NCBI GenBank assembly: GCA_007133565.1
Contig: SLMM01000057.1
Coordinates: forward strand, 1 to 58,258
Direction: 5' to 3'
Length of the DNA: 58,258 bases
DNA from: Bacteroidales bacterium
GTDB lineage: Bacteria > Bacteroidota > Bacteroidia > Bacteroidales > PUMT01
The position numbers and the translations under genes were made by a program. The notes under the pieces are model-generated. The model saw nothing but the letters and a program-made list of their open reading frames with translations, had not been told where the DNA came from and made no database searches. Below, one piece after another: positions 47,726 to 55,917 of this stretch. The first letter of the stretch is position 1. Every line of letters starts with the position of its first letter.

Positions 47726-49210
47726 ATGGGACCTGTACATAAAAAACATGCTGCAATAATCGGATCAGGCATCGGTGGACTCGCAGCATCAATCAGGCTG
47801 GCAGCAAAAGGCTATAAGGTAAGTGTATTTGAGCAGGCAAACCAGACGGGAGGCAAGATCTCCCAAATCCATCACAAGGGATTCAGGTTTGACCGGGGGC
47901 CCTCACTGCTGACCCTGCCGCACCTGATAGATGAGCTTTTTTCCCTGGGTGGTGAAAATCCGGGCGACCATTTCAAATACAGCAGACTTGAACTTTCATG
48001 CAAATACTTCTGGGAGGATGGAGCAATTATCACCGCATGGCAGGATGATGAGTTGTTTGCCAATGAGGTCGGTTCGCAGTGTGATGTAAAACCATTTCAA
48101 CTGGCAAAATTTTTCCGGAAAAGCAAGCAGTTGTATGACCTGACAGCAGAACCTTTCCTGTTCAATTCTATTCACAAGGCTTCCAACTACAGGTCGAAAA
48201 AGTTCATTAAGACAATCATGAACTCATACAAGCTTGACTCTTTTATAACAATGCACAGCCGCAACAAAAGATGGTTCAAAGACTACCGGATCGTGCAACT
48301 CTTTGACAGGTACGCCACCTACAACGGATCAGATCCCTACAGGACACCAGCCACCCTGAATATTATAGCACACCTTGAGCACTCCGAAGGAACATGGTTC
48401 CCCGATAAGGGAATATACGATATTGCAGCATCACTGACCGGACTGGCCAAAAGGATGGGTGTAGAATTCCACATGGGCTCCAAAGTAAGCGAGGTTATTC
48501 ATTCAAATGGCACAGTTAAAGGGATAAGGATTAATAATGAATTCATACCGGCACTGCTTGTGGTTAATAACACTGATGTAAGTTTGCTTTACAAAGACCT
48601 TATGCCCACTGTCAGAATGCCCCGAAAGCTTGAGCGGGCGGAGCGCTCAACATCGGCGCTGATCTTTTACTGGGGTATTAAAAAAAGCGAGCCGCGGCTT
48701 AAATTGCACAATATCCTGTTTTCAAAAGACTACCGTGAGGAATTCAGACATCTTTTCGGCACGCAAACCATATATGATGATCCCACGGTATATATATACA
48801 TCAGTTCAAGGGCAGTTGCGGATGATGCCCCCGCGGGATCAGAAAACTGGTATGTAATGATTAATGCGCCTGTTAATGGCGGACAGGATTGGGACGCGTT
48901 AATAGCCGAAGCACGAAAAAACATTGTAGCAAAGATCAACCGCATGCTGGAAGTTGATATCGAAAAAGAGATAATATTTGAGAAGTCAGCCGACCCGGTG
49001 ACGATTGAAAAGGAAACCGGCTCAATTGGTGGATCGCTCTACGGTACAAGCTCCAACAGCATGTTTGCCGCATTCAACCGCCACCCCAATTTCAGGAAGC
49101 CTCTCAAAAACCTCTACTTTACCGGAGGCAGCGTTCATCCGGGCGGAGGCATTCCCCTCTGTCTTGCCTCGGCAAAGATCATTGACAATGAAATTGAGCC
49201 CTGTCGGTAA
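47726..49210 (+). CDS. crtI: Phytoene desaturase-like carotenoid oxidoreductase (CrtI/CrtD family)
   Basis: 494 aa; AAIIGSGIGGLAASIRLAAKGYKVSVFEQANQTGGK...FDRGPSLLTLP; LYFTGGSVHPGGGIPLCLASAKI. Confidence 0.88.
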   Translation: MGPVHKKHAAIIGSGIGGLAASIRLAAKGYKVSVFEQANQTGGKISQIHHKGFRFDRGPSLLTLPHLIDELFSLGGENPGDHFKYSRLELSCKYFWEDGAIITAWQDDELFANEVGSQCDVKPFQLAKFFRKSKQLYDLTAEPFLFNSIHKASNYRSKKFIKTIMNSYKLDSFITMHSRNKRWFKDYRIVQLFDRYATYNGSDPYRTPATLNIIAHLEHSEGTWFPDKGIYDIAASLTGLAKRMGVEFHMGSKVSEVIHSNGTVKGIRINNEFIPALLVVNNTDVSLLYKDLMPTVRMPRKLERAERSTSALIFYWGIKKSEPRLKLHNILFSKDYREEFRHLFGTQTIYDDPTVYIYISSRAVADDAPAGSENWYVMINAPVNGGQDWDALIAEARKNIVAKINRMLEVDIEKEIIFEKSADPVTIEKETGSIGGSLYGTSSNSMFAAFNRHPNFRKPLKNLYFTGGSVHPGGGIPLCLASAKIIDNEIEPCR

Positions 49211-49369
49211 TATCGGCTGATGACCTGAACCTCGGCCCGGATAGGATCAGCGACCGCAATACACAAATTCCGGGTAGTTTTGAACAACAATGCACCATTT
49301 TGGTTTAGTTTACAAAATGACTAAGATGATTGCACAAAACCTTGAACAAAACAAATTACTTATAATATC

Positions 49370-50062
49370 ATGAACCCCCTATCAGCGTTAAGCAGGCAGA
49401 ATAACATGAACAAAACATGGCCTTTCCATACATTGGAAAGCAGAATAATGATAATTCTGATAATATTTTATACCGTTGGCATTGTGAGCCTCTCACTGCC
49501 GGCAACCAAGGAATATATTGAACTGCTTACCCCTTATACGCTGTTGATGAATTTAGTGCTTCTGTTTATTTTCCACAGGCCGTGGAAAACTCTTCATGTA
49601 GTTCTATTTTCTGTCATTGCAGTGACAGGATTCCTGGTTGAGGTTGCAGGGGTATATACCGGACTGGTCTTTGGTGACTACCAGTATTACCATACCCTGG
49701 GAATAAGGTTGTTTGACACCCCGCTTATTATCGGGATAAACTGGCTCATGCTGATATATTTTGTTTACCATCTGACCGGACTTACCCGGATGAAGAGGAC
49801 TTTAAAGGTTATTGCAGGCTCCCTCCTTATGGTGGCCTATGACTTATTACTTGAGCCTGTTGCAATCAGGATGAATATGTGGGACTGGTCGGGCGGCAGC
49901 ATCCCGGTTCAGAATTATGTGGCATGGTTTGTGATATCCATAGTGTTTCTGTCTTTGCTTCATTTGTTTAAAATACGTTTTGAGAATAAAATTTCACCGG
50001 GACTGTTTGCAGTCCAGGCAGGCTTTATCCTGTCACTTAACATTATCTACCGGTTTATATGA
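49370..50062 (+). CDS. Carotenoid biosynthesis membrane protein, CruF-like (DUF422)
   Basis: 230 aa; multi-TM; TGLVFGDYQYYHTLGIRLFDTPLIIGINWLML and DLLLEPVAIRMNMWDW. Confidence 0.85.
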   Translation: MNPLSALSRQNNMNKTWPFHTLESRIMIILIIFYTVGIVSLSLPATKEYIELLTPYTLLMNLVLLFIFHRPWKTLHVVLFSVIAVTGFLVEVAGVYTGLVFGDYQYYHTLGIRLFDTPLIIGINWLMLIYFVYHLTGLTRMKRTLKVIAGSLLMVAYDLLLEPVAIRMNMWDWSGGSIPVQNYVAWFVISIVFLSLLHLFKIRFENKISPGLFAVQAGFILSLNIIYRFI

Positions 50063-50679
50063 TAGAGGCAAATCATTTCTGGTTTCAGAGGCTTTTTTTT
50101 AACGCTTATATCCCCTTCATACTTCGCAGGGACTTTAAATCCCATAATATAACAGGCAAATTTGAAGACCGGGGATTACCTTTACTGCTGATAGGCAACC
50201 ATTTCAGCTGGTGGGACGGATTTTTCCCCTATGCACTTAACCGCAAAATGTTTAAACGGCGCCTGTACCTTATGATGCTGGAGGAGCAGCTTGCATCAAG
50301 ACGTTTCCTCAGGAGGCTGGGAGCCTTTTCAATCAACCCGGGCAGCCGGACTGCAGTTGATTCAATCAATTATGCCTCACAAATATTGAAAGATAAAAAT
50401 AACCTGCTGATAATTTTCCCTCAGGGTAACATCCGGTCACAATATGACAATGAAATTGTTTTTCAGAAAGGATGGTTCAGGATATTGAAAAGTACGGCAC
50501 ACCCCGTTCATGTATTGTTCATGGCAAACCTCACCGACTATTTCTCAAACAGGAAGCCATCGCTTTACACATACATTGAAGATTATCCGGAAACAGTTAA
50601 TTTTGTTTTTGAAGAACTGTCATCTGGCTTCAGCTCTTTTTTTAAGAGGTGCATTGATCAGCAAAAACAACTGGTATGA
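50059..50679 (+). CDS. PlsC-like 1-acyl-glycerol-3-phosphate-type acyltransferase
   Basis: 206 aa; GNHFSWWDGFFPYALN (NHxxxxD) and IIFPQGNIRS. Confidence 0.87.
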   Translation: MIEANHFWFQRLFFNAYIPFILRRDFKSHNITGKFEDRGLPLLLIGNHFSWWDGFFPYALNRKMFKRRLYLMMLEEQLASRRFLRRLGAFSINPGSRTAVDSINYASQILKDKNNLLIIFPQGNIRSQYDNEIVFQKGWFRILKSTAHPVHVLFMANLTDYFSNRKPSLYTYIEDYPETVNFVFEELSSGFSSFFKRCIDQQKQLV

Positions 50680-51821
50680 TCTGGCTTGCATATTTTATCT
50701 ATTTCTTTTTAGTGCTGCGCTTCGTGGTAAGCCTGTCAAACCTGCTTACACTTCAATGGCTGAGGAAATTGCGTGACGACCTGCCCATGCAAGGCGGCAA
50801 ACAGCCACTCGTATCGGTCCTGATCCCCGCACGCAACGAAGAGAATAATATTTGTAACCTTCTTGAAGATCTTTCATCGCAGAATTATGAAAATATTGAA
50901 ATACACGTATACGACGATTTGTCAGAAGACAATACCGGGAACCTGGTTAAAAACTGCAGGAAAAAAGACTGCAGGATTAAACTGATTGAGGGAGGGCCGC
51001 TTCCCGAAGGATGGACCGGAAAGAATCATGCATGTCACCAGCTTTCAAGATACGCCAACGGAGATTACCTGCTTTTCCTTGACGCTGATGTAAGGATTGG
51101 AAAGTCAGCTATAACAAACAGTCTTGCACACCTTGCGAAACATCAACTGTCACTCTTTTCTCTGTTCCCCGTGCAGAAAATGCATACACCGGGCGAAAAA
51201 ATAACGGTACCGGTTATGAACTGGGTACTGGCAGGCCTGCTTCCCCTCATCCTTACGAAAATTTCCTCAAGATCTTCACTTTCTGCTGCTAACGGACAAT
51301 TTATGTTTTTCAGGGCAGAAGATTACCACAGGTACAGGTTTCACGCTGAGCACAAAAACAGTATAGTAGAAGATATCAGGATATTCCGGTCGGTAAAGAA
51401 GAAGGGACTGAAGGCACATACAATTCTCAGCAACGGCGATATATCATGCAGGATGTACAATTCATATAAAGATTCTGTCAACGGCTTTTCCCGAAGTGTA
51501 GCAGAGTTTTTTGGCGGCCATTTGCATCTTGCCGCACTTTTTGCAAGTGTGACAACCTTTGGATTTATACCGGTTTTGGTTTTCCTGCCATCATTTTACC
51601 AGTTCACTTTTTTAACTATGCTGATTATACACAGGACCCTGATATCATGGCTCAGCCGCCAGCATGTTCTGCAAAACCTGCTACTTGCACCGCTTCAGCA
51701 GGTTTCATTCTGTTTAATGGTAATAATGGCTTACCATCACAAACTAAGACACAACCTTAACTGGAAAGGCAGAAATGTGTACCAGGCCAGCATGCAATCT
51801 TCCAACACTATAAAAGCATGA
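50676..51821 (+). CDS. Family 2 glycosyltransferase (CruC/CrtQ-like)
   Basis: 381 aa; VSVLIPARNEENNICNLLEDL, VYDDLSEDNTG, GWTGKNHACHQLS, LFLDADVRI. Confidence 0.87.
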   Translation: MIWLAYFIYFFLVLRFVVSLSNLLTLQWLRKLRDDLPMQGGKQPLVSVLIPARNEENNICNLLEDLSSQNYENIEIHVYDDLSEDNTGNLVKNCRKKDCRIKLIEGGPLPEGWTGKNHACHQLSRYANGDYLLFLDADVRIGKSAITNSLAHLAKHQLSLFSLFPVQKMHTPGEKITVPVMNWVLAGLLPLILTKISSRSSLSAANGQFMFFRAEDYHRYRFHAEHKNSIVEDIRIFRSVKKKGLKAHTILSNGDISCRMYNSYKDSVNGFSRSVAEFFGGHLHLAALFASVTTFGFIPVLVFLPSFYQFTFLTMLIIHRTLISWLSRQHVLQNLLLAPLQQVSFCLMVIMAYHHKLRHNLNWKGRNVYQASMQSSNTIKA

Positions 51822-51831
51822 CAAATTAAGT

Positions 51832-52605
51832 TTGATACGAGATCTTATGGTTTTTACCAAAATATTAAAAATAACGCTTCTCTCTTTCTGTATCATTTCA
51901 TACATACTGATATTTCCGGTAAAAGCAGGCGAACGGGAAACCCGTCAGATGATATACCAGGCGTTTACCGAAGACAGAATGGATATATGGCTGGAGGCCA
52001 TAAACATGCTTGAACGGGAATATGAGAGATCGGGCAGTCCGGATGTTCTTTATGAACTCACCCTTGCCAGGTACGGATATATAGGTTACAACCTGGGAGT
52101 TGACAACCGTGATGAAGCCCGCGCCCAGATTGCATTGGCAGAGGAGACAATGGATATACTTATGCGATCGCCACGATATGAATCATCGGCTTATGCTCTG
52201 CAGGCAGCCATGTATGCATTCAGGATATCCATGGCACCATGGCGGGCAGTTTTCTGGGGCCGCAGAAGTATGAACCTTATAGATAAGGCAATTGAAACAG
52301 ATCCCACCAATCCTTCAGCCTGGATTGAGCACGGCAATGCCATGTTCTATGCACCGGCAACTTTTGGGGGATCAAAGGAGAAGGCAATAGATAGCTACAG
52401 AAAGGCGATAGGCTTGCTTGAAAATGAAATGGAGGACAGCCACCGGTGGCTGTACCTCAATACCCTGGTGGCCCTTGCCAAAAGCTATATTGAAACCGGC
52501 AACAGACCATTGGCGCTGATAACCTATAAAAAAGCTCTCGAATTTGAGCCGGGGTTCACATGGGTGCGCGACAAACTGCTGCCTGAGCTTATGCAGCAGC
52601 AATAG
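51832..52605 (+). CDS. TPR-repeat protein of unknown function
   Basis: 257 aa; N-terminal hydrophobic segment; tetratricopeptide-like helices (AIETDPTNPSAWIEHGNAMFYA, ALITYKKALEFEPGFTWVRDKL). Confidence 0.7.
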   Translation: MIRDLMVFTKILKITLLSFCIISYILIFPVKAGERETRQMIYQAFTEDRMDIWLEAINMLEREYERSGSPDVLYELTLARYGYIGYNLGVDNRDEARAQIALAEETMDILMRSPRYESSAYALQAAMYAFRISMAPWRAVFWGRRSMNLIDKAIETDPTNPSAWIEHGNAMFYAPATFGGSKEKAIDSYRKAIGLLENEMEDSHRWLYLNTLVALAKSYIETGNRPLALITYKKALEFEPGFTWVRDKLLPELMQQQ

Positions 52606-52619
52606 GATACCGTTACATT

Positions 52620-53264
52620 TCAGCCACCTTTATTGGTCGCCGATTGCAACATACCCGACACCTTTCCGGCAAAGTTCCTGATACCTGTAACAAAACTCTG
52701 ATATAACCCGGCAGATACGTCGTATGAAAAACCTTCATGACCCGGCCTGGCATCTTTGCTGACCACTATCTTTCCCACTCCTGATTTCTTCTGCAATTGC
52801 AGTGAGAGCTCCATGAGCCTGTCAAGCCTCTCTTTACCTATCCTTTTTCTGAACCGGGGCAGGTCGCTTGGATCACAAGGTGAATGGTTCAGGAACACAT
52901 TACCCCCGCAAAAATACTGGAAACAGGGATCGCGTGCCCATTCAGAAACAATGCCCTCATCACTTGCATTGAATATCTGCTTAAGTATCAACAGGCCGGC
53001 CATGAGCCGCACCGGTTTTGCCGGTGCTCCCTTTTCGGAATAAAGTGATGCATACTCCTTTTCGATGTCATCCCATGGAAAGTGGTCAGCCATTACCCGT
53101 AGCGGGTGATCATGCTGCACTATCTGCCTGAGCACCGGTTCAAACAGGTTCAGCTCAGACTGGTCAGGAGATTTTCCTCTCATTGAATTAAGGGGAATGG
53201 TGCCATCACAAGATAAATCATTCTGCATAAAAAGTAAAGAGCTGCAATACGGAGTTATTAACAA
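52620..53264 (-). pseudogene. Truncated IS5-like (DUF772) transposase remnant
   Basis: 214 aa ORF with KPVRLMAGLLILKQIFNASDEGIVSEWARDPCFQYFCGG...DLPRFRKRIG (N-terminal transposase domain); stops before any DDE catalytic domain. Confidence 0.75.
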
Positions 53265-53400: not shown

Positions 53401-54267
53401 TCAGGGTCTTCTGTGAGGTATAGTGAAGTAGAATGACGATCCGAGGCCAGGGGTTGATTCTACCCATATCCTTCCTCCGAGCATTTCGACATAGGCACTG
53501 CATATTGAAAGGCCGAGGCTGGATTCGCAGTAATAATGATTGTCAACGGGTTCTGGATTTTCAAACCTCTTAAAAATGACTTTCTGCAATTCAACTGGAA
53601 TGCCAATTCCGGTATCCTTGACAAAGAAAAGAAGCTCCTTGTGCTTAATGCCGTAACCGAACCGGACCTTACCCTGGCCTGTAAACTTAATGGCATTTAT
53701 CAACAGGTTTGACAGTATCCGGGTGAGTTTGGATTTGTCGGTTATAATCTTCGACTTTTTATCACCAAGGCCATTTTTTAATTTGAAAATACTGTTCTGT
53801 TCCCGGGCACGAGGCGAATACTCTTCGTACAATTGTTCCATCAGCCGGTTAAGGTTGAATCTGTCGTCCTGAATGATTCTCTTGCTATCACCAGTATGGG
53901 CAACATTCAGAATATCGGTTACAACAGAAAGCAACTGCTCGCCGCTTTCATTAATTATCCGGGCAAATGCGCTTCTTTTCTCGGCAGTCAGTGCCGGATC
54001 TGACAAAAAAGAACAAAAGCCCGTCAATGTATTCAATGGTGTTCTTATCTCCCTGGAAATATTGTGCAGCAGCGAAGTATTCAACCTGTCCCTTTTCTCA
54101 AGGAATTCAAGCCTGGCCCGCAGCACCTCATTTTCGATCCTAAGCTCGTCATATCCCACATCATCCCCTTTACCGGTATCCTGATCTGGTTCAGCATCCT
54201 GACCTTTTACCCGGCTGCCGGCCTCCCCTGTTTTCTTTATTATCCTGTCTGACTGCTTAGAGCTCAT
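53401..54267 (-). CDS. Histidine-kinase-like protein lacking the phospho-acceptor His (predicted pseudokinase)
   Basis: 288 aa; LLHNISREIRTPLNTLTGF (H-box His replaced by Arg72), N-box NLLINAIKF, G1 DTGIGIP retained, G2 degenerate (CESSLGLSI). Confidence 0.85.
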   Translation of the reverse strand: MSSKQSDRIIKKTGEAGSRVKGQDAEPDQDTGKGDDVGYDELRIENEVLRARLEFLEKRDRLNTSLLHNISREIRTPLNTLTGFCSFLSDPALTAEKRSAFARIINESGEQLLSVVTDILNVAHTGDSKRIIQDDRFNLNRLMEQLYEEYSPRAREQNSIFKLKNGLGDKKSKIITDKSKLTRILSNLLINAIKFTGQGKVRFGYGIKHKELLFFVKDTGIGIPVELQKVIFKRFENPEPVDNHYYCESSLGLSICSAYVEMLGGRIWVESTPGLGSSFYFTIPHRRP

Positions 54268-54270
54268 ACA

Positions 54271-55917
54271 TCAACGTTTACCATTTACTTTTTTATAAGG
54301 GATGGTGAAATGAAATGTTGATCCTGCCCCTGGCTCCGATTCCAAAGAGATCTTTCCTCCCAGAAGTTCCACATAAGCTTTAGCAATGGAAAGTCCAAGT
54401 CCCGGGCCGCCAAATTTGCCGTTTTCAGGCTTATCCAGCTGCCTGAATGGCTTGAATATTTCCTGGTGCATTCCGGCAGGAATTCCTATACCGGTATCAC
54501 TCACAAAAAATTCAATTATTTCACCGGATACTGAGTATCCAAATGCAACATCACCTTTCACAGTGAACTTTAAAGCATTGCTTACCAGGCTTGCAAGAAT
54601 CTGGTCAAGCTTGATCCTGTCGGTCATGATCTCAAAAGATCCCTGACCGATAGAAACAGAGTAACTGAGCCCGTTGTTCATCTCTCTTGCCTTAGGTTTG
54701 AACTGGCCGTATATCTTTGACAATAATGCATTCAGGTCAGTTTTAGTTTCATTGACCTGAACCTGGCTTGTTTCAATTGCAGAAATATTGATTATGTCGT
54801 TAAGTATGTTCAGAAGCTGGTCGCTGCTATCAATTATGATATTGGCAAATTCTTCACGCCTCTCATCAGAGATGCCAGGTTCTGCGAGAAGTGCGGAAAA
54901 ACCTGTGATGGCATTCATTGGTGTGCGAATCTCGTGTGAAAGATTATTAAGAAAGGAAGTTTTAAGACGGTCAGCCTCCTCAGCCTTTTCCTTGGCTTCG
55001 ATCAGATCCCGCAGCATCCTGTTTCTCTCCGTAACATCCTCACTTATCAGGATATAATTGCAAAGCCGTCCCTTCTCGTCAAGCAGTGGAGTGATGATAA
55101 CCTTTTCCTTGAAAAAAGTGCCGTCTTTCCTGCGGTTACGGGCTTCACCCCTCCAAGTATTGCCTGCCTTCAGTGTGCCCCACATCTCCTCATACTCCTC
55201 CCGGGGAATATGCCCCCGGTTGAATATCCTGGGGGTGCGTCCCTTTACGTCATCAAGGGTGTATTGCATAAGGTCAGTAAACCTCTCATTTACCCAGGTG
55301 ATGATTCCGGCAGCATCAGTTATTGAAATTGATGCCGGATTCTGCTCGGCTACACGGCTAAGGGTCCGTATTCGTTCGCCAGACAGTTTTCTTTCAGTTA
55401 TATCAGTAATGGTTCCTATATAACCGACAACCCTGCCCTCTGCATTGAACTGAGGCACCGAATTGCCAATTACCCACGATATTTTCCCATCCTTGTGGAG
55501 AAACCGGTATTCGGCATAAGACCTGGACTTCTCAGAAACGGCTTTTGCCCATCCGGCAACAAGTCCGGTTCTGTCATCCGGATGTACTGCTTTAAACCAG
55601 CCATCACCAAAAGCTTCATCACCGGATATACCCGATATTTTGCACCAGTGAGGATTGACATAGGTGGTGTTTCCCTCATTATCAGTACTGAATATCCCGA
55701 CAGGTGCAAGTTCGGTGAGAATATGGAATTTCTGTTCACTTTCCCGTAATTCTTCTATATTGCTTCTCAGGGCTTTGTTTTCAGCTTTCAGCTTTTCAAT
55801 GAGATCATTCATTACCTGCCGGTTTTCACCCGTTTCTACCCCGATATTATTTTTTGCGGTTTCATCATTACAGGATGCTGCAGGCCCGGACTGTATTTTA
55901 TCTATCATAATACCCAT
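54271..55917 (-). CDS. PAS-domain sensor histidine kinase
   Basis: 548 aa; two PAS/PAC units (GYIGTITDITERK, NYILISEDVTERN), FLNNLSHEIRTPMNAITGF, DTGIGIP, GGPGLGLSIAKAYVELLGG. Confidence 0.93.
   Translation of the reverse strand: MGIMIDKIQSGPAASCNDETAKNNIGVETGENRQVMNDLIEKLKAENKALRSNIEELRESEQKFHILTELAPVGIFSTDNEGNTTYVNPHWCKISGISGDEAFGDGWFKAVHPDDRTGLVAGWAKAVSEKSRSYAEYRFLHKDGKISWVIGNSVPQFNAEGRVVGYIGTITDITERKLSGERIRTLSRVAEQNPASISITDAAGIITWVNERFTDLMQYTLDDVKGRTPRIFNRGHIPREEYEEMWGTLKAGNTWRGEARNRRKDGTFFKEKVIITPLLDEKGRLCNYILISEDVTERNRMLRDLIEAKEKAEEADRLKTSFLNNLSHEIRTPMNAITGFSALLAEPGISDERREEFANIIIDSSDQLLNILNDIINISAIETSQVQVNETKTDLNALLSKIYGQFKPKAREMNNGLSYSVSIGQGSFEIMTDRIKLDQILASLVSNALKFTVKGDVAFGYSVSGEIIEFFVSDTGIGIPAGMHQEIFKPFRQLDKPENGKFGGPGLGLSIAKAYVELLGGKISLESEPGAGSTFHFTIPYKKVNGKR

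Follow-up and report, generated by a model that had tools for sequence, protein, structure and literature searches.

What can a protein do that keeps the core of a histidine kinase and has lost the histidine on which such a kinase is phosphorylated? This question is raised by the gene at 53401-54267 on the minus strand of a 58,258-bp contig of a Bacteroidales bacterium, which we analysed as a whole (hereafter the window). The gene encodes a 288-aa protein, P, and adjoins the gene for a histidine kinase, K (54271-55917, minus strand). An earlier note on this DNA had taken P for a pseudokinase with a selected loss of autophosphorylation. Our analysis predicts that P is a pseudo-histidine kinase kept by purifying selection, which probably works as a regulatory partner and not as an enzyme.

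Domain structure and altered motifs of P

We aligned P with the Pfam profiles, as the earlier note had proposed. The results revealed a HisKA domain (residues 65-123, 42.3 bits) and a HATPase_c domain (residues 177-286, 79.7 bits). Both scores exceed the curated cut-offs; the same scan found no PAS or other sensor domain. A membrane segment was not seen either, by eye inspection only. P consists of a coil, a HisKA-like phospho-acceptor (DHp) domain and a HATPase_c nucleotide-binding (CA) domain, which agrees with the sensorless, membrane-free protein described earlier.

A normal H-box would read SHEIRTP; P carries Arg at its His (position 72; codon AGG, 54052-54054, minus strand). The G2 box, or ATP lid, is YCESSLGLSI (residues 246-255; 53503-53532, minus strand) versus boxes of the GGPGLGLSI type in K and its orthologues. 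The N-box NLLINAIKF (residues 187-195; 53683-53709, minus strand) and the G1 box DTGIGIP (residues 218-224; 53596-53616, minus strand) are preserved, and the reading frame is undamaged. The substituted His, the degraded CESSLGLSI lid, the intact boxes and frame, and their coordinates had all been read correctly in the earlier note. N191 and K194 of the N-box and D218, G220 and G222 of the G1 box, which serve as Mg-ATP contacts in HATPase_c domains, are retained. An active HisKA histidine kinase has a His acceptor and GxGxG in its G2 box; P has R72 and CESSLGLSI at these places.

Orthologues of P and their distribution

Among 60 related genomes, five clear orthologues of P were found, all within the same genus, with identities to the window protein of 69% (G011), 67% (G002), 64% (G005), 56% (G004) and 55% (G008). 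P occurs in 6 of the 13 genomes sampled for this genus, several of which are incomplete. Orthologues with a normal His would have spoken against a pseudokinase, and there are none: position 72 is Arg in the window genome (G000) and G011 (both AGG), Lys in G005 and G002 (both AAG) and Ser in G004 and G008 (both AGT), versus His in 67 of 67 comparison kinase cores drawn from the genome, family and order. AGG, AAG and AGT are single-step neighbours and would fit a single loss of His followed by drift.

None of the six P proteins departs from the lid sequence YCESSLGLSI, although all ten of its codons vary synonymously, and the G1 box is likewise invariant. E73, T76 and P77 do not vary, and R75 is replaced by Q in two proteins. 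Conservation of both Arg72 and the SSLGL motif had been put up for checking; the motif held and Arg72 did not. The loss of the His, not the Arg itself, thus appears to be what matters, and the strictly conserved element is the altered lid.

A profile of the six P proteins, searched against 393 genomes of the order, scored genus members at 529-548 bits and everything else at 295 bits or less. The lid pattern with its leading aromatic residue was present in 6 of 16 family genomes, all of one genus. The shortened lid pattern gave one further match in 395 genomes of the class, a chance site in a 15-codon open stretch where no kinase is encoded. On these searches, P appears to be restricted to its genus.

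Selection on P and K

We compared the ratio of nonsynonymous to synonymous change (dN/dS; Nei-Gojobori over the kinase core, with deeper pairs saturated) between P and K. In the G005/G002 pair, P had a value of 0.085 and K one of 0.095; in the G008/G004 pair, the values were 0.22 for P and 0.13 for K. Because dN/dS of P is comparable to that of K, P is under the constraint expected of a working gene, with purifying selection equal or near to that on the active kinase. The selected loss, as opposed to decay, proposed in the earlier note stands as far as purifying selection and the invariant lid are concerned; it does not extend to Arg72, which is unconserved. P shows features of a HisKA-type pseudo-histidine kinase, namely profile-recognisable domains, a His that is gone in the orthologues too, and a gene under selection.

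The distribution of constraint over the two domains also differed between P and K. After leaving out the two near-identical genome pairs, mean pairwise identity in DHp was lower in P (0.617) than in K (0.738), and in CA it was higher in P (0.735) than in K (0.639) (column permutation, P = 0.0002). The shift was also present in smaller sets (P = 0.005, 0.016 and 0.001), one of these being the four genomes in which the two-PAS K proteins group in a single clade; these permutation values are indicative only, as alignment columns are not independent. The kinase-core residues that never vary in K and that no P protein has are H72, A80, I120, F150, Q183, R236 and the lid glycines 248 and 250, and the P-specific invariant residues cluster about the N-box and the lid. 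These results suggest that constraint in P has shifted away from the phospho-acceptor domain and towards the nucleotide-binding domain.

Origin of P

K is a PAS-PAS-HisKA-HATPase_c kinase with a normal H-box and G2 box, and P is 42-43% identical to K and to ordinary PAS-HisKA kinases of the order. When 76 kinase cores were placed in a maximum-likelihood tree, the six P proteins grouped in a single clade (100/99), nested within a clade specific to the genus that also contains the K proteins (99/97), so that P and K are paralogues of a common lineage. The N-terminal coil of P (residues 39-60, YDELRIENEVLRARLEFLEKRD; 54088-54153, minus strand), with the segment YDELxxENExLxxxxxxLE, resembles the coil that precedes the PAS domains at the N-terminus of K (K residues 40-58). 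The best match was at residue 40 of the K protein of G000, and for most pairs 0 of 1000 shuffled K sequences matched as well; the single-PAS K of G004, which has a short N-terminus, gave no good match. From the tree nesting and the coil match, the best explanation for P is that a K kinase was duplicated inside the genus and that the copy lost its PAS domains internally.

A second two-PAS kinase in G004 (C256:14394-15887, minus strand) is 48% identical to K and has two TAG codons in a 744-codon span, possibly a stop-codon interruption or a pseudogene.

The K/P locus

In the window, the stop codon of K lies 3 bases ahead of the start of P, and the pair is flanked by purL on one side and a carotenoid gene cluster on the other. 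Each of the six genomes with P has a K gene at most a few genes away from it. K is followed directly by P in G000 and G011; in G005 and G002 K also comes first, but two other genes separate it from P; in G004 and G008, P precedes K. Because the order is swapped or two genes intervene in four genomes, strict translational coupling of K and P is not conserved. G010 has K and no P at the locus. As the earlier note had observed, no response regulator is nearby: 26 receiver matches were found in the genome, none of them on the P/K contig (C120).

In G008, a receiver-only protein (L054:9133-9576, minus strand) is encoded directly upstream of P, with the phospho-Asp D54 and the Lys kept and the acidic pair altered (EGE). 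It was rejected as a conserved partner receiver for P, because none of the other genomes has a close match to it.

The probable carotenoid cluster (window 47726-52605, plus strand) is kept beside the K/P locus across the genus and comprises a phytoene-desaturase-like oxidoreductase, a PF04240 carotenoid biosynthesis protein, an acyltransferase, a glycosyltransferase and a TPR protein. Between it and P, window 52620-53264 (minus strand) encodes a protein of about 190 aa that consists of an N-terminal transposase domain (DUF772) alone, the remainder of the transposase being absent. In 9 of the 13 genus genomes there is a single close match, 52-65% identical to the copy in the window; it lies in a purL/carotenoid/proC neighbourhood in the genomes inspected, and dN/dS is 0.17 in two pairs. 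This protein looks domesticated and may have been repurposed for DNA binding; as genomes that lack the K/P pair have it too, it is independent of that pair.

Discussion

P reads as a pseudokinase tied to K because the acceptor is non-His in 6 of 6 P proteins versus His in 67 of 67 comparison cores, the lid is invariant and the gene is under purifying selection, and because P shares a clade with K, matches its coil, lies close to it and shows the CA/DHp shift. With modest confidence, we favour the reading that P is a pseudo-histidine kinase derived from a duplicated K, which modulates K or the response regulator of K. Sequence and tree suggest that K was duplicated within the genus and that one copy was retained after losing its PAS sensor domain or domains, the His that accepts the phosphate and the leading glycines of the ATP lid. 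P would have no autokinase activity and would retain dimerisation, since it keeps the coil and DHp helices that a P:P or K:P dimer requires; its CA domain, with the Mg-ATP contact residues and an altered lid, may still bind nucleotide. Made beside K, P would lower or gate the output of K, most likely through K:P heterodimers with only one phosphorylatable subunit. Alternatively, P might hold the response regulator of K without phosphorylating it. Dimerisation with K or titration of K, as put forward in the earlier note, is plausible. Against this reading stand the swapped P-K order in two genomes and the two intervening genes in two others, the fact that a response regulator for K was not identified, and a structure model from two window proteins only, which was too poor to be used (mean predicted local distance difference test score 45).

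Known systems provide parallels for such a role. DivL of Caulobacter crescentus has no kinase or phosphatase activity, binds ATP weakly, senses and binds DivK~P, and controls cell fate (PMC4211667). Its DHp-CA core, like that of P, has been kept in evolution despite lacking the acceptor His, and DivL, too, has an active kinase beside it (CckA). However, DivL has Tyr (Tyr550) and additional N-terminal regions, whereas P has Arg, Lys or Ser, no sensor, an invariant altered lid and an apparent origin as a genus-level duplicate of K. The DivL structure (PDB 4q20) was the weakest of the 17 matches listed for P (61 bits versus 107 for the best), and the acceptor residue, the nesting with K and the lack of a sensor argue that P is not a DivL. 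Paralogous kinases are able to heterodimerise, as HrrS does with native ChrS (PMC9491836), and control of a kinase by another kinase through a heterodimer, as proposed for P, is described for RetS and GacS of Pseudomonas aeruginosa (reviewed in PMC12189002). RetS, however, is presented in that review as a hybrid kinase, which siphons off phosphate and dephosphorylates GacS, whereas P is no more than a DHp-CA protein that lacks both His and sensor. In evolved Corynebacterium glutamicum, the catalytically dead pseudokinase ChrS increases the signalling of its paralogue HrrS (PMC9491836); a laboratory frameshift truncates its CA domain, whereas that of P is complete and conserved. K and the ordinary PAS-HisKA kinases of the order share the domain core of P, but K differs in its PAS domains, its acceptor His and its normal G2 box.

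Other functions would fit part of the evidence. P could be a His-less phosphatase acting on the regulator of K through an E-x-x-T motif (E73 and T76 of HExxT), a bifunctional kinase having been split into two proteins. The invariance of E73, T76 and P77 agrees with this, the Thr at this site is required for HisKA phosphatase activity (PMC5727384), and the His is stated to be non-essential for it (PMC12632262). The His nonetheless contributes to that activity (PMC12632262, PMC5727384), Q replaces R75 inside the motif in two orthologues, and DivL, the best-studied case, is no phosphatase; as the reduced constraint on DHp also speaks mildly against a phosphatase, we hold this function to be unlikely. 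If P instead bound a partner of its own in a nucleotide-dependent way, independently of K, it would use CA and the altered lid and need DHp only for dimerisation, which would suit a CA domain more conserved than in active K, the five kept contact residues and the P-specific invariants about the N-box and lid. However, P is always near K, a separate partner was not found and the G008 receiver is not conserved elsewhere, and we regard this as quite unlikely. We also give a low chance to the idea that P founds a distinct pseudo-kinase family, in which the fixed lid holds or senses nucleotide and reports this to K via mixed dimers, with CA and not DHp as the working part.

The readings in which P has no function, or an ordinary one, fared worse. 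The drift of the acceptor residue through Arg, Lys and Ser and the absence of P from G010 could suggest a decaying duplicate on its way to a pseudogene, but the intact frame in six genomes, dN/dS of 0.085-0.22, a lid unchanged despite synonymous change in every codon and a CA domain more conserved than in K strongly contradict decay. A strain-specific mutation or assembly error was rejected because the orthologues carry the same changes, and decay or artefact is together very improbable. Scarcely credible is an active kinase with another acceptor, either His68 or the Ser, Lys or Arg at position 72. The His four residues upstream reported in the earlier note does exist (H68, one helical turn ahead of position 72), but it was rejected as a displaced acceptor: position 68 reads H, R, L, L, N and N in the six proteins, and that His is found in many ordinary kinases too, as AFLHNISHEIRTP. 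As position 72 varies too, there is no shared acceptor, and the G2 glycines are lost.

P joins a known kind of protein, since 722 of 76,471 HisKA domains in one survey (0.9%) have no His (PMC12632262), of which few have been studied so far. It appears to be distinguished by its recent origin beside an active paralogue, by a lid that is altered yet invariant and by a constraint that has shifted to CA. An active kinase and its presumably dead duplicate adjoin in several species, and, because the duplicate would have arisen within the genus and the move of constraint from DHp to CA is measurable, the pair may offer a compact natural test of how a kinase is converted into a regulator.
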